Shown: positions 29,420 to 43,602 of the stretch, in pieces
Numbering within the stretch: the stretch's first letter is position 1
How the letters are laid out: each line of letters opens with the position of its first letter
Assembly: GCA_903900845.1 (NCBI GenBank)
Contig: CAIUOU010000140.1
Span: 1-46,082, forward strand
DNA: 46,082 nt
DNA from: an uncultured Opitutia bacterium
Lineage (GTDB): Bacteria > Verrucomicrobiota > Verrucomicrobiia > Opitutales > Opitutaceae
Direction: 5' to 3'
Notes under the pieces: model-generated
Told to the model about the DNA's origin: nothing
Database searches by the model: none
The model's input: the letters and a program-made list of their open reading frames with translations, nothing else
Translations under genes and position numbers: made by a program

Positions 29420-29506
29420 AGGCGCGGAACGGAGACGGAATCGCCGCGAAACGCAAAGGCGTATTTCATAGCGACTTGCTGCCTCAACTCCACCGCGCCG
29501 CCCGGC

Positions 29507-29604
29507 GGGGACAGGCTATCAGCCGCGTCGAGGCCGGAGTCGTCCGCAACGACTGCCAGCACTTGGTACTAAAGCCATGGCGAGAGCTGAAATAGCCTGT
29601 CCCT
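29507..29604. repeat. Inverted pair 1 of GGGACAGGCTA repeat
   Basis: A plus-orientation copy (29507-29519, GGGGACAGGCTAT) faces a minus-orientation copy (29592-29604, ATAGCCTGTCCCT) across about 70 bases. The ends can pair over 11-12 bases, giving a REPIN-like arrangement of two REP sequences in inverted orientation. Confidence 0.85.
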
Positions 29605-29736
29605 GAGAGCAGCCTCGGTAGGAGTGTCGAAAAGATCGGACCAGCATCGAGCACTCTCCATCTCGTCGCATATATCTCCATGCCAGGTTTTTAAGAATAA
29701 AACGCGCTTTAAGATCTCGATCTACCGCCATCGGGC

Positions 29737-29790
29737 GGGGACAGGCTACAAATCAAAGGAATCAAAAAAGAGGGCCGGTAGCCTGTCCCT
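29737..29790. repeat. Inverted pair 2 of GGGACAGGCTA repeat
   Basis: The plus copy is at 29737-29748 and the minus copy at 29779-29790, with 30 bases between. It has the same core and geometry as pair 1 with a shorter spacer. Confidence 0.85.
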
Positions 29791-29806
29791 CGGCAGGTGC
29801 AGGAAC

Positions 29807-29852
29807 AGCCTGTCCCTTGAATAGGATCCGAGCCCAGCCGTAGCCTGTCCCC
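29807..29852 (-). repeat. Two further minus-orientation GGGACAGGCT repeats
   Basis: Copies lie at 29807-29817 (AGCCTGTCCCT) and 29841-29852 (TAGCCTGTCCCC), ending six bases before the stop codon of the neighbouring gene. Confidence 0.8.
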
Positions 29853-29858
29853 ACGGGG

Positions 29859-30488
29859 CTAAAGGCGGCGCAGCGCCCTTAGAGAACGATGCAGATGAAA
29901 AGCCCGCTGCAGCGCCGCATCGATGGGCGGCGATTTTTTAGCGGGTTCAACTCGAGCGTCTTCCGGCTCATCCGCCGGAGGGTGGTTCAAACTCGCCTCA
30001 TCGAGGCGCGTTTTTCCGGGATTTTCCACCAAAAGTGACAGAACCGGCTCACCACGCCCAAGCGCGTCGTAGGCCTCGCGTTCGTCTTCGGGACCGGACT
30101 TGGCCGCCAGCTGAGGTTCAAAGCCTGGAGCCGGTACGCCGATGACCACACACCCCTTGCCGCGGGAAACCCGGCGCAACACCGCTTGGAGTTCCGTGCC
30201 CGTCACGCGATTCGCCAAAAGGAACACCGGACTGCGCGCACTGGCACGAAACTCAGCCCACGCCAGCAACGCCGCCGCAGCGTCCCGCCCCGGCGCCAAG
30301 TAGCGCAAATCCAGAATAAGCGCCTGCCCCGGCGCCGCCGGCCCTCCAGGCAGATCCGATGGCAACTCCCGGATGCGCACGTACGTGAGGCCGTCGCCCA
30401 GATCCCGCGTGAGCGGGGCCGCCCAAGCGCCGGTCGCCAGCAACGGCCAACCCAGAGCGAACGCCAGAAACACTCCGGTGCGCGTCAT
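29859..30488 (-). CDS. Hypothetical exported protein
   Basis: This 209-residue protein has a clear signal peptide (GVFLAFALGWPLLATGAWA-A). A domain at about residues 28-150 has alternating hydrophobic strands (LTYVRIRELPSDL, ALILDLRYL, PVFLLANRVTGTELQAVLRR, GCVVIGVPAPGFEP). Its pattern resembles the fold of S41/C-terminal-processing peptidases without their catalytic Ser-Lys motif; that resemblance is tentative. The tail is acidic then basic (DEPEDARVEPAKKSPP). The ATG overlaps the purD stop (ATGA), so it is translated from the purD transcript. Confidence 0.7.
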   Translation of the reverse strand: MTRTGVFLAFALGWPLLATGAWAAPLTRDLGDGLTYVRIRELPSDLPGGPAAPGQALILDLRYLAPGRDAAAALLAWAEFRASARSPVFLLANRVTGTELQAVLRRVSRGKGCVVIGVPAPGFEPQLAAKSGPEDEREAYDALGRGEPVLSLLVENPGKTRLDEASLNHPPADEPEDARVEPAKKSPPIDAALQRAFHLHRSLRALRRL

Positions 30489-31786
30489 CGCCGGTTCAGC
30501 TGCCGAGCGCCGATATCACGGCGAAAATAACGGCTCGCACAGCCAATCCGCTCGCAAACCCCGTAAGCCAGATCCGCAGCACCGCGCAGCGTAGACGAAA
30601 GCGCGGTCACGCCGAGCACGCGCCCGCCGTTGGTCACCAGCTCACCGGCGGCGTTTCGCGCGGTACCAGCGTGGTAAACGGTCAACCCCGCCGGCAACGG
30701 CGCCGGCAGCGAAATCACGTCCCCTTTGGGAAAAACACCCGGATACCCTTCAGCCGCGACCACCACGCAAAGCGCGTGCTCGGGTCGCGTCTCCAAACGG
30801 TAACCCGCCAGACGGCCGTTCGTCGCCCGCCACAACAGGTCGAGGACGTCACCCGCGATCCGCGGCACCACGACCTGCGTCTCCGGATCACCGAAGCGCG
30901 CGTTGTACTCGATCACGCTCGGTCCCGATGCCGTGAGCATGATGCCGATGAAGAGCGTCCCGCAGTAAGCCATGCCGTCGTCGGCGATCGCGTTCACCGA
31001 CGGGCGCACGATCTCGTGCTCGATCCGTGCCAGCAACGCGGGCGTCACCACCTCCGCGGGCGAGTAAGTACCCATCCCACCCGTGTTCGGGCCGGAGTCT
31101 CCGTCGCCGACGCGTTTGTGGTCCTGCGACGTGGGCAGGATCACGTAATCGCGCCCCGAAACCACCACAAGGATGGAGGTCTCCTCACCCTGCAGGCAGT
31201 CCTCGACCAGAATCTGGCTGCCGGCGGCGCCAAACTTCCCGCCCGCGAGCATCTCCCGCACGGCCTCCTCCGCCTCAGCCGTAGTCTGCGCGACCACCAC
31301 GCCTTTGCCCGCGGCCAAGCCGTCGGCTTTGACCACGATCGGCGCCGGCCGCGCTCTCAGGTAATCCAACGCGGGACCGACTTCGCTGAAAAACGCGGCG
31401 GGCGCGGTCGGGATCCGGTGCTTCAGCAGGATCCGCTTGGTAAAAATCTTCGACGCTTCCAGCCGCGCGCCGTCCGCCGTCGGGCCGTACACTGGGATCC
31501 CAGCCGCGATGAGGCGATCCGCCAGGCCGAGCGCCAGCGGCACCTCCGGCCCCACGACCACGAACTCCACGCGTTCCCGGCGGGCGAGTTCCACCAACCC
31601 AGCCACGTCGTCCGCCGCCACAGCGTGACACTTCACCTCACCGGCGATCCCCGCGTTGCCCGGCGCGCAAATCACCCGCGGACGCGCCGGCGACGCCAGC
31701 AGCGCCCGCACCAGCGTGTGCTCGCGGCCGCCGGCGCCGACGACGAGGACGGAAGCAGGAAGCGCGTTAGAGGAAGGGGATGGCAC
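30485..31786 (-). CDS. purD: Phosphoribosylamine-glycine ligase
   Basis: PurD joins glycine to phosphoribosylamine with ATP, the second step of purine synthesis. Conserved segments run from VLVVGAGGREHTLVRALL near the N-terminus through FVVVGPEVPLALGLAD, EASKIFTKRILLKHRIPT, IVVKADGLAAGKGVVVA, DHKRVGDGDSGPNTGGMGTYSPA and EYNARFGDPETQVV to the C-terminal domain. No ATG precedes VLVVG; GTG at 31786 (433 residues) or TTG at 31795 are the possible starts. No other pur gene is nearby. The downstream exported protein is coupled by overlap. Confidence 0.95.
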   Translation of the reverse strand: MPSPSSNALPASVLVVGAGGREHTLVRALLASPARPRVICAPGNAGIAGEVKCHAVAADDVAGLVELARRERVEFVVVGPEVPLALGLADRLIAAGIPVYGPTADGARLEASKIFTKRILLKHRIPTAPAAFFSEVGPALDYLRARPAPIVVKADGLAAGKGVVVAQTTAEAEEAVREMLAGGKFGAAGSQILVEDCLQGEETSILVVVSGRDYVILPTSQDHKRVGDGDSGPNTGGMGTYSPAEVVTPALLARIEHEIVRPSVNAIADDGMAYCGTLFIGIMLTASGPSVIEYNARFGDPETQVVVPRIAGDVLDLLWRATNGRLAGYRLETRPEHALCVVVAAEGYPGVFPKGDVISLPAPLPAGLTVYHAGTARNAAGELVTNGGRVLGVTALSSTLRGAADLAYGVCERIGCASRYFRRDIGARQLNRR

Positions 31787-31859
31787 GGCGCGCAAGTGTG
31801 GTCAGCGCGAGGGTCAGGCAACGTCAAAATCGCCGGGCGCCAGGCCCGGCGGCCTGCCC

Positions 31860-33767
31860 TCAAAGCACCTGCAACTTCTTGCGGTAAAAGGCCACGACCT
31901 CGTCGGGGTCATCCGTGAACAGCATGTAGTCAGCCATCCACGCCGGCGCGCGCCGCTCTCGAATCATGGTATTGAGCTGGCGCCGCAGGTCGCCCCAGAA
32001 AGCGGCGTTGAAAAATACGTAAGGAATCCGAGGCCGGATCCCGAGCTTCAGATTGCACAGCTCAATGCCCACCTCCTCGAGGGTGCCGACCCCTCCCACG
32101 TTGAAGACGCAAAAATCCGCCGCCTCGAACCACTTTTGGCGGAAGTGTCGCGACGACTCCTGAAAAGTATTGAAGAAGTCCACGCCCAGCTCCGGCGGCT
32201 GGGCCTCGAGTTCGAGGAAACACGCGCCGGTGAGGGCGCCCTTGGTGCGGGCCTGCTCCGTCGCGAGCCGCATCACGCCGCCGCCACCACCGGTGAGTAC
32301 ACCAAGGTTGTGGCCGATGAAGCTGGTGAGCTTGTCGACCAGCGTCGCGATCCGGTCGGAATCCTTTTGGTCGAGACCCACGGCGGATCCGTAGAATGCG
32401 AGGATCGTCGACTCCGCGAAACGTTTGGCGACCTCCTCACGCACGAAGAAACCATGGTCACGCTTGTAGGTGTGGAGGTAGAGGTCCCTGGTGAGTTCGT
32501 CGTACCAGTAGACTTGGATTCCGATGGAACTCAGGGTGTCTAACCTTCCATGGGCGTGACTGGAGAAGAAATAGCCGTGGGTGCGCGAAGCCTTGCGGAA
32601 GATGATGCGGCGCAGCCTCAGGTCGCCGAGGCGGGAGAGCAGTTCGATCTGCTCCATGAGATTCGGGAAGCTGTCGAGCACGAGGGTGTCGGCGTTCTCC
32701 GGCGCGTCATCGAGCGCCTGGATCATGGTGCGGTGGCCGACCGGGCAGGCGTCGCCCGCAAGCACCTTGCGCAGGTCATCGTTGGCGCGGACGACCAGGG
32801 CTCGGTTGTCCATCGACCCGCTCTGGCCGCGGACCACGACCTTGGTGCGCGGACGGGCCTCGCGTTCCTCGCGGGGCGGGTTGCGATCGAGGCACTTGAA
32901 GACACCGCTGGCGGTGGCGAGCAGGCGCGTGCGGCGCTTGGCCAGCGTCTTGAACTCGGGATCGACCAATTCGGGGGCGCGGAATACGTCGACCGAAACG
33001 ACCGGGTTCACGATCGGCTGGTCGCCCGGATTGTAGATTTCCAGCATGACGTTCGTGCCGAAAGTCTTCACCGGATCGAGCAACACCGCGCTGGTGTGGA
33101 TCCCGAAGTTGCCGGCGCCCTGATTGAGCACCACGTAGTGCTCGCGCAGGTACATGGAGCAGCTCGTGAGCACGCCGGAGCGTGGCGGGATCGTCAGCGG
33201 CGAGGCGTCGTGGCGCACCTGCACCCGGTCGAGGAAGGAACGGCCCGCGTGGCCCGCGACAACCCGCTCGAACTCGGCCCGCTGGAGCTTGGGGCTCAAG
33301 GTGTAGCTGAGGTGGTGGGGCGTGAGAAAGACACTTCCCCGTGAGTCGATGCTGATGGTGTTGGGGAGCTTGATCCGGTTCTCCCGCAACGCGTCCCAGA
33401 TCTCCGCGGTGGAAAGCTTCGCCGCCGCGGGGGCATGGTAGAGCCGCCCCACCGGGGCGCCGACTCGCATCAGCTTTTTCCAGTAGGGCGCATTCGGAAA
33501 GCTGGCGTCGAACAGGAAGGCATCCACCTCCATCTCGATCCGCCCTCCCTCCAGCCTTGGGCCGCACCGGATCCGCATCTCGACGCCGATGCGGGCGAGC
33601 GAGCTGCGCTCCGAGAAGCGCAGATCCGCGAGGCGCGCCTGCAGGAACTCGAGCTCGGCGGAATTCCTGGGCCAGAAGGCCAGGGTCATCGCGACGTGAC
33701 GCTCATCCTTGTTTTTGACGGCGAGAATCTGGCCGTCCGGGCTGGTCCAGAACTGGTCCGGCATCAT
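31860..33767 (-). CDS. 635-residue protein with LOG-like nucleotide-binding C-terminal domain
   Basis: Residues from about 450 onward form a Rossmann-like LOG/TIGR00730 domain: ILAFYGSAVGLDQKDSD, LGVLTGGGGGVMRLATEQA and NVGGVGTLEEVGIEL, the last standing for the family PGGxGTxxE. LOG proteins are phosphoribohydrolases acting on nucleotide monophosphates; the PGG proline is replaced here. The first 440 residues match nothing recognised and hold soluble segments such as HHLSYTLSPKLQRAEFERV and VLDSFPNLMEQIELLSRL. Stand-alone LOG proteins are near 180-250 residues, so this is a large fusion. The start is an ATG-ATG pair at 33767. It is divergent from the FKBP gene. Confidence 0.78.
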   Translation of the reverse strand: MMPDQFWTSPDGQILAVKNKDERHVAMTLAFWPRNSAELEFLQARLADLRFSERSSLARIGVEMRIRCGPRLEGGRIEMEVDAFLFDASFPNAPYWKKLMRVGAPVGRLYHAPAAAKLSTAEIWDALRENRIKLPNTISIDSRGSVFLTPHHLSYTLSPKLQRAEFERVVAGHAGRSFLDRVQVRHDASPLTIPPRSGVLTSCSMYLREHYVVLNQGAGNFGIHTSAVLLDPVKTFGTNVMLEIYNPGDQPIVNPVVSVDVFRAPELVDPEFKTLAKRRTRLLATASGVFKCLDRNPPREEREARPRTKVVVRGQSGSMDNRALVVRANDDLRKVLAGDACPVGHRTMIQALDDAPENADTLVLDSFPNLMEQIELLSRLGDLRLRRIIFRKASRTHGYFFSSHAHGRLDTLSSIGIQVYWYDELTRDLYLHTYKRDHGFFVREEVAKRFAESTILAFYGSAVGLDQKDSDRIATLVDKLTSFIGHNLGVLTGGGGGVMRLATEQARTKGALTGACFLELEAQPPELGVDFFNTFQESSRHFRQKWFEAADFCVFNVGGVGTLEEVGIELCNLKLGIRPRIPYVFFNAAFWGDLRRQLNTMIRERRAPAWMADYMLFTDDPDEVVAFYRKKLQVL

Positions 33768-33903
33768 GAGGGTTTCCCCACCATGCGCGAAGCCTCGGGC
33801 CGCACAAGCGGGGAGATCGGGATTGCCTTAACCGGTAATCGCCGGCACGCCTCCCGCCTTTCCCCGGAACTCCGGCCCGCCGCCGCAGTCCGTCCCACTT
33901 CCC

Positions 33904-34665
33904 ATGAAACTGAAATCCATCGTCACGCTCTGCCTGTCCCTCTCCGGCCTCGCGGCCGTCGCCGGCGCGCAGACCCCCGCCGCGCCCGCCGCGGCCACCG
34001 CCCCGGCCAAGCCCGCGTTCACGGACGCGCAGCTGATCGAGGAATTCGGCTGGTTCATCGGCAAGCGCGTCGGGCTGACCGAGCTTGAGTTCAGCGCCGC
34101 CGAGCTGGAAACCCTGCTCAAGGGCTTCCGTGGCGCCGCCGAGGGCAAGGATTCGCCCTACGAGCTGGAGAAGATCGGGCCGCTCATGGACGACTTCATG
34201 CAGAAGAAGCAAGCCGCCTACGTGGCCAAGCTGAAGACCAAGAATCTGGCGGTGAACAACGACTTCTTCTCCAAGCTCAAGGAGAACAAGAACGTCGTGG
34301 AGCTTCCCAGCGGCCTCCGTTACGAAATCGTCGCCCCGGGCAACGGTCCGGCCCCGAAGGCCAATGAGACGGTACGTGTGCACTACACCGGAAAGCTGAT
34401 CGACGGCACCGAGTTCGACAGCTCCGTGAAGCGCGGCGAACCCGCCGAGTTCCCGCTGGACCAGGTGATCCCGGGCTGGACCGAGGGAATCCAGAAGATG
34501 AACAAGGGCGGGAAGATCAAATTGTACGTCCCGCCGCATCTCGCCTACGGCGACGACGGCCGCCCTGGCATCCCGCCGGGATCCACGCTGGTCTTCGACG
34601 TCGAGCTCCTCGACATCAAGGCCGCGGCCGCCGCCCCGCAGCTGCCCCCGCCGGCCAAGAAGTGA
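33904..34665 (+). CDS. Exported FKBP-type peptidyl-prolyl cis-trans isomerase
   Basis: This 253-residue protein has a signal peptide (IVTLCLSLSGLAAVAGA), an N-terminal helical FKBP_N-type dimerisation region (about residues 38-125) and a C-terminal FKBP domain (about 140-240). The latter contains VRVHYTGKLIDGTEFDSSVKR, PLDQVIPGWTEGIQKM, KIKLYVPPHLAYGDDG and IPPGSTLVFDVELLDI. The layout matches FkpA/Mip, periplasmic foldases that form V-shaped dimers. A Pro/Ala-rich tail ends the protein. A strong terminator follows at 34696. Confidence 0.95.
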   Translation: MKLKSIVTLCLSLSGLAAVAGAQTPAAPAAATAPAKPAFTDAQLIEEFGWFIGKRVGLTELEFSAAELETLLKGFRGAAEGKDSPYELEKIGPLMDDFMQKKQAAYVAKLKTKNLAVNNDFFSKLKENKNVVELPSGLRYEIVAPGNGPAPKANETVRVHYTGKLIDGTEFDSSVKRGEPAEFPLDQVIPGWTEGIQKMNKGGKIKLYVPPHLAYGDDGRPGIPPGSTLVFDVELLDIKAAAAAPQLPPPAKK

Positions 34666-34695
34666 TCCGGCGCCTCGCGCCACCGGCCTTTTCCC

Positions 34696-34727
34696 AAGCC
34701 CCCGCCACCGGCGGGGGCTTTTGTTTT
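34696..34727 (+). terminator. Rho-independent terminator after the FKBP gene
   Basis: An 11 bp stem (34696-34706 with 34710-34720, AAGCCCCCGCC and its complement) with a three-base loop is followed by TTGTTTT. It could also serve the convergent AbgT gene, whose stop is at 34745. Confidence 0.9.
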
Positions 34728-34744
34728 CCAGACGCCGGCGTCGC

Positions 34745-36283
34745 CTACTGACCCAGCAGCATCTTAACTCCCGGACCGATCGGCCAACCCGCCTGCAGCC
34801 AGAGCACGAGCATCAGCGTCCAGCCTGCGGTGAACGTGAGCGAATAGGGCAGCATCAGGGCAACCATCGTGCCGATGCCTGATTGCGGCGCGTAGCGCTG
34901 CGCGAACATGAGGACCAACGGGAAGTTCGAGGCGAGCGGCGTGACCACGTTCATCAGGCTGTCCCCCACGCGGTAGGCAGCCTGTGTCATCTCGGGGGAG
35001 TACCCGAGCAGCATGAACATCGGCACGAAAACCGGCGCGAGGATCGCCCACTTGGCCGAGGCCGATCCGAGGAACAGGTCGGTGGTCGCGGTGAGGAGAA
35101 TCAGGCCGACGATTAGCGTCACCGGCCCGAGTTCGAGCGATTTGAGGAGCGCGGCGCCTTTGACGGCGAGGATCACACCGACGTTGGACCACGCGAAGAG
35201 ATTCACGAATTGAGCGATGAAGAACACGACCACCAGGTACGGCGCGGCGAGTTCCATGGTCCGCTGCATCGACCGATAGACATCCGTGTCCCGCCGGATC
35301 GATCCGGTGGCTATCCCGTAGGTGACGGCGGGGGCCAGCCCGAGCACGAAGATGAAAAAGACGAGGCCCTTGATGAAGTAGGAGTGGATGAACCCGGGCT
35401 TGGCGGGGTCCTGCAGCACGCCGCCCTCCGGGATCAGGCCGGCGGCGACGAGCGCGCCCAAGGCGAGAAAGACGCCCGCGGCCCACGCGAGACCGCGGCG
35501 CTCCGCGGCGGACGGTGGTTGCAAGTCCTGCGCCGGCGCCCCGCCATCGTAACGGCCAAGCCTCGGCTCCACCAAGCGCTCGGTCACGAACGCCCCCAGT
35601 CCCGTCACGAGGAAGACGGAGGCGCCGAGGAAGTAGTAATTCGCCATGGCATTGACCGTGTACTTCGGGTCGACAATCCGCGCGGCCTCCTGCGTGAGAC
35701 CGGCAAGCACCACGTCGCTCGTCGAGATGAGCAGGTTGGCGGCGAAACCGCCCGAGACCCCGGAGAACGCGGCAGCGAGACCCGCGAGCGGATGGCGCCC
35801 CAGCGCATGGAACAGCGCCATGCTGAGCGGTAGCAGCAGCACGTAGCCGATATCTCCCGCCGTGTGGGACATCGCACCGCAGCCGACCACCACCCACGTG
35901 AGCCAGCGGCGCGGGGTGCGATTCACCAAGAGGCGCACGCAGGCGCCCAGCAGACCGGAGTGCTCCGCGGCCGCCAGTCCGAGCAGGCATACGAGCACGG
36001 GACCGAGCGGGGCGAAATTGATGAAATTCGGAAGCAGCCCGGTGATGAGGCGGCGAAGGCCGTCGACCGACAGCAGATTCACGGCGCCGACCGCCTTCCG
36101 CGTGACCGGATGCTCGACGCCCACACCCGCGGAACTCAACGCCCAAGAGAGCAGCACGATGAACGCCGCGAGCAGCAGGAACAGCGTGGCCGGATGAGGG
36201 AGCAGGTTGCCCCAGCGCTCCACCCGCGCGAGCTGCCGCTCGAGGAAGGTGCGTGGAGCGGTGGAAGGCGTGGGATGATCCAT
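34745..36283 (-). CDS. AbgT-family transporter
   Basis: This 512-residue protein, from the ATG at 36283 preceded by GAGG, has about 11-12 membrane spans. It matches the AbgT family: LERWGN-like VERWGNLLPHPATLFLLL, FINFAPLGPVLVCLLGLAAAEHSGLL, SHTAGDIGYVLLLPLSMALF, HPLAGLAAAFSGVSGGFAAN and late VGDSLMNVVTPLASNFPLVL. AbgT imports p-aminobenzoyl-glutamate in E. coli; other members export sulfonamides. Next to an M20 amidohydrolase, import is likelier. It is the last gene of a three-gene minus-strand operon, 11 bases after the N-formylglutamate-amidohydrolase-like gene. Confidence 0.93.
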   Translation of the reverse strand: MDHPTPSTAPRTFLERQLARVERWGNLLPHPATLFLLLAAFIVLLSWALSSAGVGVEHPVTRKAVGAVNLLSVDGLRRLITGLLPNFINFAPLGPVLVCLLGLAAAEHSGLLGACVRLLVNRTPRRWLTWVVVGCGAMSHTAGDIGYVLLLPLSMALFHALGRHPLAGLAAAFSGVSGGFAANLLISTSDVVLAGLTQEAARIVDPKYTVNAMANYYFLGASVFLVTGLGAFVTERLVEPRLGRYDGGAPAQDLQPPSAAERRGLAWAAGVFLALGALVAAGLIPEGGVLQDPAKPGFIHSYFIKGLVFFIFVLGLAPAVTYGIATGSIRRDTDVYRSMQRTMELAAPYLVVVFFIAQFVNLFAWSNVGVILAVKGAALLKSLELGPVTLIVGLILLTATTDLFLGSASAKWAILAPVFVPMFMLLGYSPEMTQAAYRVGDSLMNVVTPLASNFPLVLMFAQRYAPQSGIGTMVALMLPYSLTFTAGWTLMLVLWLQAGWPIGPGVKMLLGQ

Positions 36284-36294
36284 CGGGGAGATCC

Positions 36295-37146
36295 TCAAGC
36301 TGCACCGGCCGCCATGGCCCCGGCCGCGGCCTGCGCGAAACCAGAGAGGTCGTCGCGCAGGCGCGCGAATCCGAGGCCCAGCTCGCAGGTCGACTCATCC
36401 AGGTAGACCGCGCGGTTGATTTCGATCTGCAGGCTGGAACGCCCGCGGGCGGGGTCCCCGTGGGCGCGCACGATGTCGGCGCCCCGGTAGGGGTCGTTCA
36501 CCTGCACGCGGTAGCCGCGCTCCGTGAAGTACGCCGTAACCCAGCGCGTGACCGCCGGTTCGGCGGAAGTGCCGTCGCGGTCACCGATCACAATGTCGGG
36601 ACGGGGGCGGCCGGAATCGGTGTTCATCGCGTTGCCACGCGACTTCATCGAGTGGCAATTGAAATGCCAGACCCGTCCGTGGCGTCCGGCGGCCGCGTCG
36701 ATCTCGCGCCCGAGGGCAGCGCGATAGGGAGTGTGGTAGAGATCGATGCGGCGGCGCACCTCGGCCACCGACAAACGGCGACGGTACATGGGCACGCCGG
36801 GCAGGACGTAGCGCCGGATGAGCCCCATCCCCCGACGCGCATGGTCGCTCAGGGCCACGGGCTCGGGCCAGGGCGCATCGAGAAGTTCCTGATCGATATC
36901 GTCGGCCGCGCGGTTGGCGTCGAGATAAGCCCGCGGAAACGTCGCGGCGAGCAGCACCGCCCCCGCCTCCGTGACCCCGCGGTACAGCGCGTCAACGTGC
37001 GCGTCCCACGTCGTCGCGATCTGTTCCCGCGAGGCGGCGGGCGCGAAATCAGGCGGGTACTCCATCCCGCTGTGCGGTGAGTCGAAGACCAGCGGGGCGG
37101 CCGCACCCGTGGGACGATGGATTAGCAGCGGAACAACGGCGGCCAT
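36295..37146 (-). CDS. N-formylglutamate amidohydrolase-like protein
   Basis: The ATG at 37146 gives 283 residues. The sequence has LVFDSPHSGMEYPPDF, TTWDAHVDALYRGVTEAGA, ANRAADDIDQEL, HTPYRAALGREIDA, WHFNCHSMKS and DIVIGDRDGTSAEP, then LQIEINRAVYLDE. This is the HutG/FGase family pattern, whose enzymes hydrolyse N-formyl-L-glutamate to formate and glutamate with a metal. No hut genes are nearby; placement between an M20 amidohydrolase and AbgT suggests a related N-acyl-glutamate substrate. Gaps to its neighbours are 11-13 bases. Confidence 0.92.
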   Translation of the reverse strand: MAAVVPLLIHRPTGAAAPLVFDSPHSGMEYPPDFAPAASREQIATTWDAHVDALYRGVTEAGAVLLAATFPRAYLDANRAADDIDQELLDAPWPEPVALSDHARRGMGLIRRYVLPGVPMYRRRLSVAEVRRRIDLYHTPYRAALGREIDAAAGRHGRVWHFNCHSMKSRGNAMNTDSGRPRPDIVIGDRDGTSAEPAVTRWVTAYFTERGYRVQVNDPYRGADIVRAHGDPARGRSSLQIEINRAVYLDESTCELGLGFARLRDDLSGFAQAAAGAMAAGAA

Positions 37147-37159
37147 CGGCGGCGGGCGC

Positions 37160-38593
37160 TTAGTCGCGGTAGTTGAGCGGCGGGGCGCGATCACCGATGA
37201 CCGCCTCGTAGCGGAAATCCGCGCCGCGGCGCTTCTCGAGTTCGGCGCGCGCGGCCTTGATCGTGGCGCCATCGGAAAAAATATCGATCATCGTGCCGGC
37301 GAGGACCTTCGCGGCCACGTTCATGCCCTTGAGCCCCATCGAAGTGCCGCCGCAGGCGACCGCCTGCCAGCTGTGGCCCGGGGTGCCGGGAGCCCACGTC
37401 GCGGTGCGCACCCCGACGGTCGGTACGGTCCAGCTGACGTCGCCGACGTCGGTCGAGCCCGCGCCGTCGCGGGGCGGGTTCGGGCTGAACGGGGGAACCA
37501 GCGCGGCCACTTCGGGCGCAGGCGCCTTGCCAAGGAGCGTGCGGCCGATCTTCGCCGCGAACTCCCGCTCGACCTCATCGTAGATGACACCGCCGACGAC
37601 CTCGAGATTCGCGTGCATGACACGCCCGAGGACCTCGTTCGGGAGCAGGTCGTAGACCCCGCCGGTGATTTCCCATTCGACGGTGGTGCCGGTGCCGAGC
37701 GCGGCGCCGGTCGCGGCCTTTTCCACGCGATCCCAGACATCGCGCACCACCTGGCGGCTGGGATGACGCACGTAGTAGTACACCTCGGAGAAAGCGGGCA
37801 CGACGTTGGGAGCCTCGCCGCCCCGAGTGATCACATAGTGGATACGCGAGGTTTCCGGGATGTGCTCCCGCAGCAAGTTGACCATGTGGTTCATGGCCTC
37901 GACGCCGTCCAAGGCCGAGCGGCCGCGATCAGGAGCGCTGGAGGCGTGCGAGGAGACGCCCTTGAACCGGAACTTGCCGGAGCGGTTGGCGAGGGACGGC
38001 GTCATGATGATCGTGTTGCGGTCGGCGGGATGCCAGTGCAGGGCGACGTCGACATCGCGGAAAAGTCCGGCGCGGACCAGGTACACCTTACCGGAGCCGC
38101 CCTCCTCCGCCGGTGTGCCGTAGAGACGCACCGTACCGGAGCGGCCGCTGGCGCGCAGCCAGTCCTTGATCGCGACGGCCGCCTGCGCGGCGCCGGCGCC
38201 GAACAGGTGGTGACCGCAGGCGTGGCCGGCCGTGGCTCCGGGGCGCGGCTTCTTTTCCGGAACCGCTTCCTGCGAGGCGCCGGGCAAGGCATCGAACTCC
38301 GCGAGCACGCCGATCACGGGCGAACCGGAGCCGGCGCTGGCGATGAAAGCGGTGGGAATGCCGGCTACACCCGACTCCACCTTGAACCCCTCCTGGCGCA
38401 GCCTTTCCTGAAGTAAAGCGGAACTACGGTGCTCCCGGTAACCGACCTCGGCGAAGTCCCAGATTTTGAGGGCGAGGTCGTCGTACGCGGAGCGACCGGC
38501 ATCGATGCGGGCGAAAACATCGGCCTTGGCCTTTTGCGCGGATAACGCGCCCGGGAGGGAAAGTATGAACAGGAACGCGAGAAGTGGTCTCAT
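37160..38593 (-). CDS. Exported M20-family amidohydrolase, AbgB-like
   Basis: This 477-residue protein has a signal peptide (MRPLLAFLFILSLPGALSAQ) from the ATG at 38593; TTG at 38608 is an alternative start. The M20 dinuclear zinc site is visible: GHACGHHLFGAGAAQA, TPAEEGGSGK and LHWHPAD, with the dimerisation domain starting KFRFKGVSSHASSAPDRGRSALDG. It resembles AbgB, one subunit of p-aminobenzoyl-glutamate hydrolase, but no AbgA partner is present and the signal peptide puts it outside the cytoplasm. It is first in the operon with the HutG-like and AbgT genes, suggesting cleavage of an acyl-glutamate or dipeptide before uptake. Confidence 0.93.
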   Translation of the reverse strand: MRPLLAFLFILSLPGALSAQKAKADVFARIDAGRSAYDDLALKIWDFAEVGYREHRSSALLQERLRQEGFKVESGVAGIPTAFIASAGSGSPVIGVLAEFDALPGASQEAVPEKKPRPGATAGHACGHHLFGAGAAQAAVAIKDWLRASGRSGTVRLYGTPAEEGGSGKVYLVRAGLFRDVDVALHWHPADRNTIIMTPSLANRSGKFRFKGVSSHASSAPDRGRSALDGVEAMNHMVNLLREHIPETSRIHYVITRGGEAPNVVPAFSEVYYYVRHPSRQVVRDVWDRVEKAATGAALGTGTTVEWEITGGVYDLLPNEVLGRVMHANLEVVGGVIYDEVEREFAAKIGRTLLGKAPAPEVAALVPPFSPNPPRDGAGSTDVGDVSWTVPTVGVRTATWAPGTPGHSWQAVACGGTSMGLKGMNVAAKVLAGTMIDIFSDGATIKAARAELEKRRGADFRYEAVIGDRAPPLNYRD

Positions 38594-38660
38594 GGAACGA
38601 CGGGACAAGGGGGAGCGCGCAAGGAAAGGCCGGTGGGGAGCGGAGGAAGCGGAACCTCAT

Positions 38661-38706
38661 CGGCGCCGGAAGGGAAAGGCAAACCCGATGCCCTTTGCCG
38701 GCGCCG
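38661..38706. promoter_or_regulatory. Interrupted palindrome in the M20/POT divergent region
   Basis: CGGCGCCGG (38661-38669) pairs perfectly with CCGGCGCCG (38698-38706). Just inside, AAGGG (38670-38674) pairs with CCCTT (38691-38695) after a two-base bulge, a 14-pair stem with a 16-base loop. It lies about 50 bases before the POT gene start. It may be a shared operator or a leader hairpin; no T-run follows. Confidence 0.6.
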
Positions 38707-38753
38707 CAGATACGGTTTGCCGCTTCTAGGGCGCCGCCCAAGCTCCATGGCCC

Positions 38754-40271
38754 ATGAGTTCCCCCGCCCCCGTCAGCCCGGTCCCGATCGAGACCGAGGC
38801 CGTGGTGCCCGCCCATCCGCAGTTGTTCGGTCACCCGCGTCCTCTCTACACGCTGTTCTTCGCCGAGTTATGGGAGCGGTTTTCGTATTACGGGATGCGC
38901 GCGCTGCTGACCTTCTACATGGTGGCTCCCGTTGCGAAGGGGGGCATGGGACTGCCCGACAACAAGGCGGCCCTGATCTACGGAACCTACACGATGTCGG
39001 TGTACATGTTGTCGATCCCCGGCGGCATGATAGCCGACAACATCCTTGGCTCGCGAATGGCGGTGCTGATTGGCGGGATCATCATCGCCGCGGGGCACTT
39101 CTTGATGGCGGTGCCGGGGGACTTCACGTTTTACCTCGGGCTGCTGTTGATCGTGCTCGGGACAGGGCTGCTGAAGCCGAACATCAGCGCGATGGTCGGG
39201 CAGCTGTACCGGCCCGGTGACTCCCGGCGCGACGCGGGTTTCTCGATCTTCTACATGGGGATCAACCTCGGGGCGTTCATCGCCCCGTTGGCTACGGGAT
39301 TCCTCGCGCAGCACAGCAAGTTCAAGGAATTGCTCACCGGCTGGGGCTTCAACCCGGTGCACTCATGGCACTGGGGCTTCGCGGCGGCGGGCGTGGGTAT
39401 GGTACTCGGCTTGGTGGTGTTCGCGGTCTTCGGGCGTGGGCTGAAGGAAGTCGGACCGGCGCCGGCGGCCGCTCCCGGCGCGTGGCGCAAGCCTCTGCTT
39501 ACGCTGGTGGGCACGCTTGCGCTGTGGGGTATCGTCAAACTTTCGGACACCGCGGGATTCACGTGGATCCGCTACCTGTTCATCCTCGTGCCGGTGGCGC
39601 TGATGGTGTGGTTTGGTTTTTCGCGACAGGAGGACGTGCGGCGGCTGGGCGCGATTTTCTTTTTCTTCATCGGGGCGTTTGTTTTCTGGGCCCTGTTCGA
39701 GCAGGCGGGCACCTCGCTCAGTCTTTTCGCCGACCGCTACACGGCCACGCACGTGGGTGGCGTGGAGGTGCCGTCGTCATGGTATCAGGCGGCCAACCCG
39801 ATTTTTGTGATCCTGCTCGCGCCGGTGTTCGCGCTGGCTTGGACGAGACTGGGCGCGCGGCAGCCATCTAGCCCAATGAAGTTCACGCTGGGGCTGTTTT
39901 TCCTGGCGCTCGGTTTCAGTCTGATGATTCCAGCGGCGCGCCTCGCGGCGGAAGGTCGCGTGAGCCCGCTGTGGCTGCTAGGCCTTTATCTGCTGCAGAC
40001 GATGGGAGAGATGTGCCTGAGCCCGGTGGGCTTGAGCACCTTCACGAAGCTGGCGCCGCGGCATTTGGTGGGGGCGATGCTCGGCATCTGGTTTCTCGGT
40101 GCGGCGTTCGGCAACAAGTTCGCCGGCGTGCTGGCGGCGAGTTTCGGCGAGGGCGAGGCGGGGCAGCTGGACCGCTTCTTCGGTCAACAGGCGCTGGCGG
40201 TGTTTATTGTGGCGGGAGTGTTCCTTGCGCTGGTGCCATGGGTGCGACGCCGCATGGGCGGGGTGCTTTGA
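38754..40271 (+). CDS. POT/PTR2-family proton-coupled peptide transporter
   Basis: This 505-residue protein has about 12-14 membrane spans. It has the POT E1XXE2R-like motif in FFAELWERFSYYGMRALLTFYM, the GGMIADNILGSR loop, PNISAMVGQLY and the FYMGINLGAFIAP signature. POT carriers import di- and tripeptides with protons. A hydrophilic loop near residue 235 separates the two halves. The gene is divergent from the M20/HutG-like/AbgT operon, and both sides fit scavenging of short peptides or amino-acid conjugates. The oxygenase gene follows after 15 bases. Confidence 0.94.
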   Translation: MSSPAPVSPVPIETEAVVPAHPQLFGHPRPLYTLFFAELWERFSYYGMRALLTFYMVAPVAKGGMGLPDNKAALIYGTYTMSVYMLSIPGGMIADNILGSRMAVLIGGIIIAAGHFLMAVPGDFTFYLGLLLIVLGTGLLKPNISAMVGQLYRPGDSRRDAGFSIFYMGINLGAFIAPLATGFLAQHSKFKELLTGWGFNPVHSWHWGFAAAGVGMVLGLVVFAVFGRGLKEVGPAPAAAPGAWRKPLLTLVGTLALWGIVKLSDTAGFTWIRYLFILVPVALMVWFGFSRQEDVRRLGAIFFFFIGAFVFWALFEQAGTSLSLFADRYTATHVGGVEVPSSWYQAANPIFVILLAPVFALAWTRLGARQPSSPMKFTLGLFFLALGFSLMIPAARLAAEGRVSPLWLLGLYLLQTMGEMCLSPVGLSTFTKLAPRHLVGAMLGIWFLGAAFGNKFAGVLAASFGEGEAGQLDRFFGQQALAVFIVAGVFLALVPWVRRRMGGVL

Positions 40272-40286
40272 GTTTACGATCGCGCC

Positions 40287-40904
40287 ATGCCTGTCCGCGC
40301 CTGGTTCCCGACCTACATCTATTGTGAGACGTTGCAGCGCTCGGGGCTTGAGCGTTTCAACCGAGATCTGGCGGAGGAGTGCCGGCAGCTGCGGGATTAC
40401 GACCGGGCGGGCCGGAGGTGGTCAGCGAAAAACTATCCCGGCGGATACACGAGCTACGCTTCACTTAACCAATTGCACCGGTTTTCGAGCAGCTTCGCGG
40501 ATCTCGGGCGGAAGCTGGAACGGCATATGCGAAGGTTTGCCGGGCACCTCGAAATGGACCTGCGCGGACGACAGGTGGAACTAACCGATCTGTGGCTGAA
40601 CATCATGCCGCCGACGGTCGCGCACTCGCTGCACCTGCACCCGTTGTCATTCATCAGCGGGACCTATTACGTGGCCACGCCGGAAGGCTGTCCGGGACTG
40701 AAGTTTGAGGATCCGCGTCTGGACCGGTTCATGGCGGCACCACCGCGACGGGAGAGCGCCCGGGAGGAGAATCGCTCCCACGTCACTTATCCAGCCGAGG
40801 CCGGTAACGTGATACTCTTCGAGAGTTGGCTGCGCCACGAGGTGCCGTCCAACCGGGTCGACGCGGATCGGATCAGCGTCAGCTTTAACTTCAACTGGCA
40901 CTAA
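40287..40904 (+). CDS. TIGR02466-type putative 2OG-Fe(II) oxygenase
   Basis: This 205-residue protein matches the TIGR02466 group: an N-terminal FPTYIYCETL, LWLNIMPP, HSLHLHPLSFISGTYYVATPEG, LKFEDPRLDRFM and ILFESWLRHEVPSNRVDADRISVSFNFNW. The HLHP His-x-His and the later H in LRHEVP with R in RISVSF are consistent with an iron and 2-oxoglutarate site, but the substrate is unknown. It follows the POT gene by 15 bases and is probably co-transcribed. Three GGGACAGGCT-type repeats begin 12 bases after its stop. Confidence 0.9.
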   Translation: MPVRAWFPTYIYCETLQRSGLERFNRDLAEECRQLRDYDRAGRRWSAKNYPGGYTSYASLNQLHRFSSSFADLGRKLERHMRRFAGHLEMDLRGRQVELTDLWLNIMPPTVAHSLHLHPLSFISGTYYVATPEGCPGLKFEDPRLDRFMAAPPRRESAREENRSHVTYPAEAGNVILFESWLRHEVPSNRVDADRISVSFNFNWH

Positions 40905-40915
40905 GGTTCCAGCCG

Positions 40916-40990
40916 AGGGACAGGCTATACCCGATTCAAACGCGTGCAGACCGTAGGGACAGGCTGTTAGGACAAAACGAGGGACAGACT
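40916..40990 (+). repeat. Three tandem-oriented GGGACAGG/ACT repeats
   Basis: Copies are at 40916-40927 (AGGGACAGGCTA), 40955-40965 (AGGGACAGGCT) and 40980-40990 (AGGGACAGACT), all in plus orientation. The last has the GACT variant also found beside the RAYT gene. Confidence 0.85.
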
Positions 40991-41169
40991 GAAAAGCTCA
41001 CCTAGACGGGCTTGCCCTAAAAGGGCCACTCTCAATCCACACGTTCCCCTAGCCCATTGCCGCCCAGAAGCGGGGCCCGCAAGCAGGGTAAGGCTGAGGT
41101 TATGACATACCTTCGAAGGACTGGGTTTCGTATCGCTTGCCTGGGACTTTTCCTCTCCGAGCTACGCCC

Positions 41170-41181
41170 AGTTAGGGTACA
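41170..41181 (+). repeat. Direct repeat left of the SDR gene
   Basis: AGTTAGGGTACA is identical to 42291-42302. Preceding ACGCCC is also shared, two bases further away in the right copy. The pair brackets the small reading frame and the SDR gene, about 1.1 kb apart. Confidence 0.6.
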
Positions 41182-41241
41182 TTTCGCCCTGAAAGCGCGA
41201 TTCCCGCTGGCGAATTTAAGCTTTCCCGCCAGCGTCCTGCC

Positions 41242-41457
41242 ATGCTCGTGATCCGTCGCATGGTAGATCGCCGGCGTGCCTACACCGCGCTGCTACTGCC
41301 CGGGGAACCTCCGCGGATTTTCCCGACGACGGATCAAGAACACGCGCGCATCCTGCAGATCTACAAACAGGACCGGGCGCACGAGGGAATCTGTAACGAT
41401 TTCTCCGACTTCGGACTCGAGTCCTCACCGGCGAGTGGTCCGAAAATCGGGAGCTAA
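41242..41457 (+). CDS. Possible small protein upstream of the SDR gene
   Basis: A 71-codon frame begins at an ATG seven bases after a hairpin and ends ten bases before the SDR start. Third-position GC is high and the protein is soluble and charged (MVDRRRAYTALLLPGEPPRI, then DQEHARILQIYKQDRAHEG). No family is recognised. It may be a real leader gene or chance; position and composition slightly favour a gene. Confidence 0.4.
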   Translation: MLVIRRMVDRRRAYTALLLPGEPPRIFPTTDQEHARILQIYKQDRAHEGICNDFSDFGLESSPASGPKIGS

Positions 41458-41467
41458 CGAAAGTGCG

Positions 41468-42226
41468 ATGTCTGACGCCCGTCCCTTTGCCCTCGTAACC
41501 GGCGCCTCGCGAGGCATTGGAGCAGCCATCGCGAGGGCGCTAGCCGCGCGAGGCTGCCGCGTCGCTGTCCATTGTAACAATCGGCGCGACCTCGCGGAGG
41601 GCGTTCGCAAGGGATTACCAGGAGACGGACATCAGGTAATCGCCGCCAACCTCTCTACTGAGGATGGCGTGGACCGGGCATGGGGCGAGGCGCTCTCCTC
41701 GTTTGGCCGGATAGATATTCTCGTGAACAATGCCGGTATATTCACGGAGCATCCGCCATTGACGACGTCGACGGACTCGTGGCGCGAAACATGGAGGACA
41801 ACGTTGGCGGCCAACCTGCTCGGGCCGGCCCACCTCAGCCATCTCGCCGCCCGATCGATGGCCGCAGCCGGCGGTGGACGCATGGTCAACATTTCCTCAC
41901 GCGGGGCGTTCCGCGGCGAGCCGGACGCACCGGCTTACGGCGCGAGCAAGGCAGGACTGAACGCGCTCAGCCAATCACTCGCGAAGGCGCTCGCGCCGCA
42001 CAAAGTAATCGTGCTTTGCATCGCGCCAGGCTGGGTAGAAACAGAAATGGCCGCCCAACATCTTCATGGCGAAAAAGGGCAGGAACTCCTCGCCCAGCAT
42101 CCGCTGGGCCGGGTGGCCACGACGGAGGAGGTCGCCCGCACCGCTGTCTTCTGTGCAATGGACGCACCCGCAGCCATGACAGGAGCCGTGTTGGATCTGA
42201 ACGGCGCGAGTTACCTCCGCACCTGA
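41468..42226 (+). CDS. Short-chain dehydrogenase/reductase
   Basis: This 252-residue classical SDR has the cofactor motif TGASRGIGAAIA, the NNAG motif in ILVNNAGIF, catalytic Ser in ISSRGAF (S143 or S144) and YGASKAGL with Y157 and K161, followed by APGWVETEM. R in CNNRRD after the second strand is compatible with NADP. C-terminal GAVLDLNGASYLRT is the usual end for this fold. Substrate unknown; FabG-like in form, but no fatty-acid genes are near. It sits between short repeats and the RAYT gene. The ATG at 41468 directly precedes the Rossmann fold. Confidence 0.92.
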   Translation: MSDARPFALVTGASRGIGAAIARALAARGCRVAVHCNNRRDLAEGVRKGLPGDGHQVIAANLSTEDGVDRAWGEALSSFGRIDILVNNAGIFTEHPPLTTSTDSWRETWRTTLAANLLGPAHLSHLAARSMAAAGGGRMVNISSRGAFRGEPDAPAYGASKAGLNALSQSLAKALAPHKVIVLCIAPGWVETEMAAQHLHGEKGQELLAQHPLGRVATTEEVARTAVFCAMDAPAAMTGAVLDLNGASYLRT

Positions 42227-42237
42227 GCGAGCAGCGG

Positions 42238-42279
42238 AGGGACAGACTTAACCCAGCGCCCCAGCGCACGGGGACAGAC
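42238..42279 (+). repeat. Two GGGACAGAC repeats upstream of the RAYT gene
   Basis: Copies at 42238-42248 (AGGGACAGACT) and 42270-42279 (GGGGACAGAC) lie in plus orientation, 67-108 bases before the transposase start. Matching minus-orientation copies follow the gene. Confidence 0.8.
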
Positions 42280-42290
42280 ACAACGCCCGT

Positions 42291-42302
42291 AGTTAGGGTA
42301 CA
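42291..42302 (+). repeat. Direct repeat right of the SDR gene
   Basis: This is the second copy of AGTTAGGGTACA (see 41170-41181), lying between the upstream REP-like copies and the transposase start. Confidence 0.6.
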
Positions 42303-42345
42303 AGCGGGCGTAGCCTCGAGGAATCGGCTGCACAAGTCTTCCGAA

Positions 42346-43332
42346 ATGCGGCGGAACCGAATCAAGATAGACCCTAGCGACGGGGAAGCCTGCTATCATT
42401 GTGTCACCCGTACCGTAAACGGGGAACAGCTTTTCCAACAGGCCGACCAGGAAGTGCTCAGAAGGATGATCTGGCGAGTCGCCGATTACTGCGGGTTGCA
42501 GGTCATCACTTACACAATCCTTTCGAATCACTTCCATGTTTTGGTTCGCGTCCCCGCTCAAGCCCCGGTGGCGGACGAGGAATTACTCCGACGATACGCC
42601 GTGCTTTTCTCAACCCCCGGAAACTTCGAGCCAGCGCGATTTTCGACCGTGAAGAAGATGCTGATCGAGAACGGACCTGAAGCTGAACGCTGGAGAAGAC
42701 GACATTTGGCACTGATGGGCGACATCTCTCAATACATGAAGATCCTGAAGCAGCGCTTCAGCATTTGGTACAACCAAGCCCACGGGCGATTCGGCACGCT
42801 CTGGGCGGAACGCTTCAAAAGCATTCTGGTCGAAAACGTTGAGCATGTATTGGCCACGGTCGCTGCGTACATCGATCTCAACGGCGTCAGAGCAGGACTT
42901 GCGGCCGATCCGAAGGACTACCGTTTCTGCGGCTACGCTGAGGCTGTGGCCGGATGCAAAGCCCCCAGAGAGGGCCTGCAGTCGATATTCAACTCAGCCG
43001 ACTGGTGCGCGGTTCAAGCGAGCTACAGGCTAAGGATCTTTGCATCAGGATCAGCACCGCGCGAGGGAAAGTCGGCTATTTCAGCAGCCGATTTTGCCGA
43101 GGCACTCAGAACCGGAGGGAAACTACCCCTGGCGACCGTTCTTCGCTGCCGCGTGAAGTACTTCAGCCACGGAGGCGCATTAGGAGGAATGGCGTTTCTC
43201 AAGGAGACACTGGCCGCAAGGCGCAAAAAAACCGGGGAAACAGTCGGGTATCCAGCATCACCCTTACCCCCAATCACTGATTGGGGCGAACTGTCCACTT
43301 TGATGCCCATAAAAGACGCCGGTCTCCACTGA
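42346..43332 (+). CDS. REP-associated tyrosine transposase (RAYT, Y1 HUH family)
   Basis: This 328-residue protein has the HUH motif in LSNHFHVLVRV (H62, H64) and the catalytic tyrosine in AAYIDLNGVRAGL (Y175, family form YIDLNPVRAG). YHCVTRTVNG, QYMKILKQRFSIWYNQAHGR and GTLWAERFKSILVE are further IS200/IS605-like Y1 signatures. RAYTs are single-copy, domesticated relatives of IS200 transposases that nick and mobilise short REP hairpins. A C-terminal extension (about residues 200-328) exceeds typical IS200 transposases. GC content is visibly lower than in neighbours, suggesting transfer. GGGACAGAC copies flank the gene in opposite orientations. Confidence 0.93.
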   Translation: MRRNRIKIDPSDGEACYHCVTRTVNGEQLFQQADQEVLRRMIWRVADYCGLQVITYTILSNHFHVLVRVPAQAPVADEELLRRYAVLFSTPGNFEPARFSTVKKMLIENGPEAERWRRRHLALMGDISQYMKILKQRFSIWYNQAHGRFGTLWAERFKSILVENVEHVLATVAAYIDLNGVRAGLAADPKDYRFCGYAEAVAGCKAPREGLQSIFNSADWCAVQASYRLRIFASGSAPREGKSAISAADFAEALRTGGKLPLATVLRCRVKYFSHGGALGGMAFLKETLAARRKKTGETVGYPASPLPPITDWGELSTLMPIKDAGLH

Positions 43333-43600
43333 GGAAAACGGGGCGCGGCGTTATCGCGTAGGCGGCAGGGCGGAGACCATCCGACGAACACGAATCTCCG
43401 CACCAAGACCGAGGTGCGCGGACAAGGATCGGCGGCGTCCAGCATGCCGCTTTTTCCTTCATGAAGCGCGGCAACCTGTCACTCAGGTCAAAACTGTTTC
43501 TGAAAGCAGTTCAGCGGTTGCAACAAGGCGGCAAAAGGTGGCCGCGGGACTCACAAGGACTCACAAAGCCTGTCCCTAGGCGAAGAGAGGAGGACTGTCC
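43333..43600. other. Region downstream of RAYT with hairpins and a tandem repeat
   Basis: Two small stem-loops follow each other: 43474-43488 (ACCTG/CAGGT) and AACTG/CAGTT at about 43491-43511. A perfect tandem duplication of GGACTCACAA spans 43547-43566, directly before the minus-orientation REP copies. No gene is seen. Confidence 0.6.
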
Positions 43601-43602
43601 CT
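43567..43602 (-). repeat. Two minus-orientation GGGACAGG/AC repeats downstream of RAYT
   Basis: Copies are at 43567-43578 (AGCCTGTCCCTA) and 43594-43602 (ACTGTCCCT). The second includes the first bases of the reverse-strand stop codon of the permease gene, which ends at 43601. Confidence 0.8.

Follow-up and report, generated by a model that had tools for sequence, protein, structure and literature searches.

A Y1/HUH transposase gene of Opitutaceae and the 13-bp repeat that is very probably its cognate

The window analysed here is a contig of 46,082 bp (G000:C140) from the 4.40-Mb genome, in 205 contigs, of an uncultured Opitutia bacterium of the family Opitutaceae. It carries an intact gene for a Y1/HUH transposase and, around this gene and elsewhere, short repeats built on the heptamer GGGACAG. 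From the letters alone, an earlier note had described the locus as a REP-associated tyrosine transposase (RAYT; REP, repetitive extragenic palindrome) accompanied by its probable cognate repeat. We find that GGGACAG is very probably the cognate repeat of this transposase: the gene flanks in relatives, the co-occurrence of gene and repeat across the genus, a sister-species site that lacks the unit and the matching of repeat tails to transposase lineages all point in that direction.

The encoded protein matches Pfam PF01797 (Y1_Tnp; 9.7e-12), and this match and its motif residues place it, as the earlier note had it, in the RAYT superfamily of Y1/HUH transposases. Alignment and motif place the HUH residues at H62-F-H64 and the catalytic tyrosine at Y175; both are invariant in a 12-row alignment, as is the spacing pair Y175...N179 (12/12 rows). 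The tyrosine motif reads YIDLNG in the window protein and YIDLNA/S/C, YTDLNC, YVDLNC or, once, YVDLNP in the other 11 rows. The NCBIfam model of REP-associated tyrosine transposases (NF047646) matches at 3.4e-13 and scores 49.7 bits where 80 would be its cut-off, the NCBI IS200 model matches weakly (18.8 bits; cut-off 55), and a search of solved structures returned weak matches only, to IS200-type proteins and E. coli TnpA-REP 4er8 (E 0.08-0.66). A Pfam scan of 12 family members at E 0.1 returned Y1_Tnp alone, with no helix-turn-helix (HTH) or DnaA_C domain. The same genome encodes a second transposase (C110:82424-83392), 59% identical to that of the window and likewise surrounded by repeats.

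All 13 repeat copies listed previously are present where they had been placed, in both orientations (Table 1). The window contains 12 matches to the pattern GGGACAGRCT, and 60 third-order Markov simulations of the window gave none. Eleven of these matches belong to the 13 copies, the other two copies having GACAC after GGGACA and GTCCT after GGGACAG; the twelfth match, at 44291 inside a gene and absent from the earlier list, probably arose by chance. The genome-wide count against a control, proposed earlier as a check, gave 45 matches in the 4.4-Mb genome against 6 for the reversed pattern. Chance or base composition as the source of the repeats is excluded by the simulations and the reversed-pattern controls. 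Intergenic positions account for 35 of the 45 genome copies, though the same gene caller, a home-made codon model trained on 13 window genes, makes the window 88% coding. The difference in tails that had been remarked between copies near the RAYT and distant ones is real in that the tails near the gene vary (GACTT and GACAC upstream, GGCTT and GTCCT downstream); the split between near and distant copies is not clean, since the distant copy at 40980 also has GACT.

Table 1. Transposase gene, repeats and repeat-bearing regions of the window
Feature	Repeat	Position	Strand	Remark
Unit repeats-transposase-repeats		42231..43602	+	Missing from the orthologous G019 site: 48 bp versus 1,372 between the same genes
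Y1/HUH transposase gene, RAYT/TIRYT-type		42346..43332	+	328 aa, intact; Pfam, NCBIfam, alignment
Left-end repeat	AGGGACAGACTTA	42238..42250	+	Left boundary of the unit missing in the sister species
Left-end repeat	GGGGACAGACACA	42270..42282	+	75 nt 5' of the start codon
Right-end repeat	AGGGACAGGCTTT	43565..43577	-	
Right-end repeat	AGGGACAGTCCTC	43590..43602	-	Right boundary of the unit missing in the sister species
Repeat-bearing intergenic region, six-copy array		29420..29858	.	Compared at the same gene pair in relatives
Solitary repeat	GGGGACAGGCTAT	29507..29519	+	
Solitary repeat	AGGGACAGGCTAT	29592..29604	-	
Solitary repeat	GGGGACAGGCTAC	29737..29749	+	
Solitary repeat	AGGGACAGGCTAC	29778..29790	-	
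Solitary repeat	AGGGACAGGCTGT	29805..29817	-	
Solitary repeat	GGGGACAGGCTAC	29840..29852	-	
Solitary repeat	AGGGACAGGCTAT	40916..40928	+	Directly 3' of a 2-oxoglutarate-Fe(II) (2OG-Fe(II)) oxygenase gene
Solitary repeat	AGGGACAGGCTGT	40955..40967	+	
Solitary repeat	AGGGACAGACTGA	40980..40992	+	

When 49 clustered genome copies were aligned on GGGACAG, an anchoring that leaves position -1 and the tail as the independent part, extra information was found at -1 (always A or G) and at +7 to +11 (mostly G, C/T, T, A, T/C), the remaining positions lying near background; the unit is therefore about 13 bp long, RGGGACAGGYTAY. This sequence occurs 23 times exactly in the genome, and 58 times with at most one mismatch, where the reversed control gives 14. 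Decayed cores are rare, since GGGACAG is altered in just 3 of the 35 one-mismatch matches (counted by eye). As single-stranded DNA, single copies are unfolded (z -1.5 to +0.8 for seven window copies), and within the copies there is neither a GTAG/GTGG tag nor an internal palindrome. The inverted pair at 29730-29797 does fold (z -5.2), as do the two ends of an element of the congeneric genome G003 joined via a short spacer (z -4.7). Among neighbouring copies at most 300 bp apart, counted in the five genomes with full match lists as exact matches to one pattern per genome, so that neighbours with other tails are missed, 69/81 pairs are direct and 12/81 inverted. The median spacing is near 40 bp, and the 12 inverted spacings are irregular, from 32 to 279 bp. 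The six-copy array of the window has the order + - + - - -, with two adjoining + - pairs.

The motif follows the transposase gene through its relatives. Among 32 long transposase matches in the genus, of which 31 were examined and one copy at a contig edge (L080) was excluded, GGGACAG lies within 600 bp of the gene at 31/31 loci and never inside it, with all 70 upstream copies oriented like the gene and 43 of the downstream copies inverted. A wider set, the best 80 of 313 relatives and overlapping in part with the genus genomes, gave the same picture: the motif is present in the flanks of 72/80 loci, all 114 upstream copies are on the gene's strand, and the density is 1.84/kb within 600 bp against 0.077/kb at 1-2.5 kb. 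CTGTCCC is the most widely shared flank 7-mer of this set (72/80 loci). A site 45-85 nt 5' of the start codon is found at 25/31 genus loci and 64/80 loci of the wider set. A survey of the phylum covered 387 genomes, with 48 matching at 1e-60, 30 loci kept and 25 of these viewed, plus 26 family loci; the motif was present in the flanks at 7/13 loci of rank 'phylum' (one unsure), 1/1 of rank 'class' and 22/28 of rank 'family'. Three loci of this survey (L194, L195 and L239) have no usable gene frame, which makes the match at L239 unsure, and at five (L180, L189, L197, L216, L237) the gene start is probably set too far upstream, which leaves motif misses there uncertain. Some of these loci have matched inverted ends (GAAGAT/GAAGAC, ACCAT/ACCAT, GCCAGC/GCCAGC). 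Among plasmids, 14 records matched the transposase, and the 1.5-kb flanks of 5 loci held no GGGACAG; phage records gave no match to the transposase. The motif as a general feature of distant homologues is excluded by the five motif-free plasmid loci.

Copy numbers tell the same at the level of genomes. A full-length gene is present in 9/27 genomes of the genus. Six of these contain AGGGACAGGTYAA (G005 28 copies, G006 56, G007 18, G017 45, G021 4 and G025 8), and the other three (G000, G003, G019) have none, their genes carrying other tails; among the 18 genomes without a full-length gene, 16 have none, G008 has one copy and G026, which retains a transposase remnant, has 5. The reversed control is at zero in 27/27. 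The pattern GGGACAGRCT reaches 45 matches against 6 for its control in the window genome G000, 20/8 in the sister species G019 and 31/16 in G009, which holds a partial gene. Relatives with and without a RAYT, the comparison suggested earlier, thus differ: carriage of the repeat tracks the full-length gene with a Fisher P of 3.5e-5, for which the criterion of being repeat-bearing was fixed after the data had been seen, and AGGGACAGGTYAA alone, at three or more copies, gives P 0.0017 over the 27 genomes. Outside the genus, we scored 189 family genomes, 43 with a homologue (E up to 1e-30) and 146 others, and homologue detection there may be incomplete, some first-look candidates being unscored per genome. 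At least three copies were found in 11/43 homologue-bearing genomes against 0/146 others, and at least one in 27/43 against 14/146, counts that include in part the gene's own upstream site. The two findings that the earlier note had named as fatal to its proposal, a core not enriched in the genome and a core equally frequent in relatives lacking a RAYT, were both looked for, and neither was observed.

The unit is also present or absent as a whole. In G019, whose neighbouring protein is 94% identical to that of the window genome, homology to the window breaks off at 42230, seven bases short of the first 13-mer, and restarts at 43603, right after the last. From this break at the outermost repeats it follows that what was gained or lost consists of repeats, transposase and repeats. 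The gene on C110 sits at the same place in G000 and G019, with flanks 83% and 79% identical. At the six-copy array of the window, GGGACAG was found in 0/21 scorable relatives (G002, G006, G009, G010 and G019 were not scorable), of which 20 have an interval of 62-236 bp and one of 784 bp, against 443 bp here; the array was therefore gained in the window's lineage. Elsewhere the units are multicopy. G003 has seven transposase copies with genes 94-97% identical and differing host flanks, which mostly start at AAGGGGGACAGACA and finish in the inverse of AAAGGGGACGGACATG, and its genome holds 14 sites AGGGGACRGACAYG against 0 controls. G106 has several copies, 87-90% identical and again with differing host flanks, that start near AGAAGGGACAGGTCGG and whose similarity stops, by eye, at the stop codon. 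At several left ends, GGGACAG together with a few of the bases beside it is duplicated in short tandem.

A 6-bp direct repeat, AGCGGA, lies at 42233-42238 and 43603-43608, the left one overlapping the first base of the first 13-mer. Target duplication is not expected of Y1 enzymes, the printed flanks of other units show by eye no such repeat, and a general target-site duplication is not claimed. Most of the genus retains the gene order glyA, phosphatase, hypothetical gene and purD; in G019 (L242) this order is interrupted at the intergenic spot that holds the six-repeat array in the window, and the gene beyond the break resembles a dTDP-sugar epimerase. Around the three-repeat array (40907-41194) the gene order also differs from that of G019, where the oxygenase gene and the short-chain dehydrogenase/reductase (SDR) gene are on separate contigs with other neighbours and no GGGACAG.

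The tail of the repeat goes with the lineage of the transposase. Over 76 loci (the 80 minus 10 for want of an upstream copy, an unbroken frame or a flank, plus 6 genus rows), the first 8 bases after the core track protein distance between genomes (rho 0.36, 0/999 permutations); G006 stands in this test under two labels (WYBX and G006), so that a few same-genome pairs were counted as different. At 28 two-sided loci, left and right tails of one locus agree at 4.0/5 positions against 2.6/5 between genomes (0/2000). Three pairs of these loci (L096/L187, L097/L178, L115/L192) do not differ in their tails and probably represent single loci under two names; such duplicates raise the null, and the test is therefore conservative. 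G003 contains two transposase lineages, each with tails of its own. The C110 gene of the window genome is flanked by the tails GGCTA, GGCTG, GGTTA and GACTA, closer to the genome-wide repeat population than the copies flanking the window gene, and this resemblance of tails makes the C110 gene, or an ancestor of it, the more likely origin of most solitary copies.

We consider it probable, on the whole of this evidence, that the window holds a TIRtron-like mobile element of Opitutaceae-type Verrucomicrobiota together with a population of repeats seeded by that element. In the mechanism that we propose, the 328-aa single-strand transposase would recognise the linear 13-nt site RGGGACAGGYTAY, in which GGGACAG is the unchanging core and about five further bases form a tail particular to each transposase lineage. 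By analogy with the biochemistry of TnpA-REP, and in keeping with the anatomy of the unit, the enzyme would bind one strand, nick beside the site through Y175 and join the ends. TnpA-REP is described as strand-specific for single-stranded DNA, recognising a tetranucleotide motif plus a palindrome and cleaving at CT (PMC8266576). The gene unit would thereby be moved in cis, and its ends would now and then be moved or tandemly multiplied in trans, yielding solitary and arrayed sites. Two sites in the same orientation would then delimit the smallest piece that can be excised, in agreement with the direct arrays; for the whole unit the enzyme would use the inverted pair that brackets the gene. Orientation is seemingly not strict, since the downstream copy is direct in several genomes, and the preponderance of direct neighbours would be in keeping with an enzyme that, like TnpA-REP and TnpA-IS200, reads a single strand. 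More tentatively, and with less confidence than in the element itself, the system might represent a Y1/HUH family that dispenses with hairpin recognition in favour of an unstructured 13-nt single-stranded site with a fixed core and an evolvable specificity tail, each lineage having a private code and a non-palindromic, REP-like population of solitary sites.

The most serious competitor, which we nevertheless hold to be unlikely, takes the 13-mers for operators or iterons of the transposase, acting as a regulator or as a domesticated DNA-binding protein, with selection keeping immobile arrays in place. About 13 conserved bases between flanks near background, the rarity of decayed cores and the frequent site 45-85 nt before the start codon are what binding sites would give; that whole units and an array come and go between relatives, that transposase elements are multicopy with differing host flanks, and that tails follow the transposase lineage even within one genome (two in G003) is what immobile sites would not. 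The variant REPIN type envisaged in the earlier note, in which the mobile unit is an inverted pair folded into a hairpin that the transposase recognises, seems to us a little less credible still. Copies flanking the gene are often inverted, the pair at 29737-29790 and the joined G003 ends fold, and the six-copy array contains its two adjoining + - pairs. Against these stand the direct orientation of most neighbouring pairs, by which the repeat is not a REPIN, the lack of any tag or palindrome within a copy, and inverted spacings that are irregular where those of REPINs are fixed (PMC3116915); on orientation and absence of structure together, we reject identity with REPINs. It is very improbable, finally, that the repeats belong to another DNA-binding system beside whose sites the transposase merely inserts. 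G026 and G009 do hold copies without a full-length transposase; yet the repeat is found in G026 about 100 bp upstream of a short remnant of the transposase and in the same orientation, the partial gene of G009 lies at a contig edge, and co-occurrence and tail matching speak for the transposase.

Several observations weigh against a mobile element that seeds its cognate repeat, for which all the evidence is computational. G003 has the gene and neither of the two common tails. Without the window genome, the enrichment of GGGACAGRCT in the genus is modest (126 matches against 102 for the control in 8 gene-bearing genomes, 117 against 155 in the 18 others; P 0.007). Outside the genus the GTYAA-tailed pattern is missing in 16 of the 43 homologue-bearing genomes, and 14 of the 146 others hold 1-2 copies. 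Inversion of the downstream copy is inconstant, with 19 direct copies in the genus and, in the wider set, 34 '-' and 17 '+'. The motif is absent from the flanks of 8/80 loci of the wider set and from five distant gamma- and betaproteobacterial homologues, and in other families of the same order it was seen at 1/9 sampled loci, on the opposite strand. The tail tests have controls that are not fully null: control segments gave rho 0.09 and 0.07 (17 and 9 of 999) in the comparison with protein distance, and of the two left-right controls one was flat and one slightly raised (11/2000). The G019 site by itself does not distinguish gain of the unit from its loss.

The closest known kind is the TIRYT/TIRtron of Di Nocera et al. 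2013, in which RAYT-like genes are flanked by inverted repeats, several of them GGGGWSAS, some at constant distance from the gene, and repeat families are moderately abundant in some genomes (PMC3733652). The window system belongs to that kind, with differences. Shared are the RAYT-homologous Y1 transposase with HUH motif and tyrosine, the inverted repeats around the gene (two upstream '+', two downstream '-') and the dispersal of copies singly, in pairs and in groups; GGGGWSAS recurs in the looser form RGGGACAG, since the base before the core is the fourth G in 29/49 clustered genome copies and A in 20/49. The window protein differs in being long (328 aa, with an insertion of about 50 aa), the repeat unit in having just about 13 bp, and the system in that direct arrays dominate, the downstream copy is sometimes direct and a lineage-specific tail is documented. 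According to the sections available of Quentin et al. 2018, 20/26 TIRYTs fall in TnpAY1 subclass 2.1, all with an HTH-type domain (PMC6006769); this C-terminal domain, HTH_23-, HTH_28- or Bac_DnaA_C-like, was not found here by Pfam and, as far as the available text of the 2013 paper goes, is not part of its definition.

In shape the protein resembles TnpAY1 subclass 2.3, as suggested by an alignment with four gammaproteobacterial proteins assigned to it by length, motifs and host order: members of that subclass are about 325 aa long, carry an insertion of about 50-55 aa after the HUH motif, between beta3 and alphaC, and occur in several copies in some genomes. It lacks their insertion of about 10 aa between beta1 and alphaA, has YIDLNG where they have YVDLNP, and aligns poorly in its C-terminal part with the gammaproteobacterial proteins. 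For subclasses 2.1 and 2.3 the available part of the 2018 survey describes REP-like repeats as not found (PMC6006769), whereas the window family has cognate repeats. With RAYT/TnpA-REP systems it shares the Y1/HUH transposase, a gene flanked by cognate dispersed extragenic repeats and, in some genomes, more than one transposase-repeat pair; it differs from these REPtrons in that no 20-40-bp palindrome with a GTAG/GTGG tag at its foot was found here and in that the protein scores below the NCBI model's cut-off. In P. fluorescens SBW25, 93% of 430 REPIN doublets are inverted (PMC3116915), a proportion very different from that seen here. IS200/IS605 elements are alike in Y1/HUH chemistry, judged by motif, and in the multicopy mobile units of relatives, and unlike in having a Y...Q motif in place of Y...N (12 rows) and in that the repeat here has no hairpin. 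As to the subterminal hairpins of IS200/IS605 ends, the folding covered single repeats of the window, which are unfolded.

Already known, then, is the association of a RAYT-like gene with inverted GGGGWSAS repeats; our analysis adds how its presence varies from genome to genome, a sister-species site that lacks the unit, an array particular to one lineage, the 13-bp extent of the repeat, arrays in direct orientation and a core-tail code. The outline is ordinary and the evidence unusually clear. How RAYT-like enzymes and repeats co-evolve, and whether the enzymes truly move the repeats, is an open question in the field, and in these relatives enzyme and repeat arrive, disappear and change together. 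Cognate repeats would also be supplied for long, insertion-bearing TnpAY1 proteins, a shape without repeats in the 2018 survey as available to us. Because the repeat is short, unstructured, nearly absent without the enzyme and linked to it by its tail, and because a sister pair with and without the unit is at hand, the specificity of core versus tail and the mobility of the unit are directly testable. Among the matches listed for literature printing any of six repeat 10-mers, none was by its title a study of bacterial repeats.

Particular loci add some detail. One metagenome-assembled genome (MAG), JAISGL (Opitutaceae Gx485_bin97), holds many divergent transposase copies (23 loci, L116-L164), with GGGACAG 45-85 nt before the start in 18/23 and mostly no downstream copy; inspection by eye reveals a TGACAG variant at a similar position in four of the remaining five. 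A transposase 53% identical to that of the window (L136) is on a contig titled as an Akkermansia muciniphila MAG, a title that may reflect an error of binning or naming. In G003 (L074, contig C20) a transposase copy breaks off after about 70 codons, and a complete copy begins with its left end directly behind it; the remainder of the broken copy was not found within the 6.7 kb examined. At two loci of G106 (L210 and L211, contigs C12 and C223) a longer repeat, in which the sequence on either side of AAAGGGACAGGTCAATT is conserved, forms direct arrays, and the multicopy transposases of the same genome carry the GTCGGAAAT tail.

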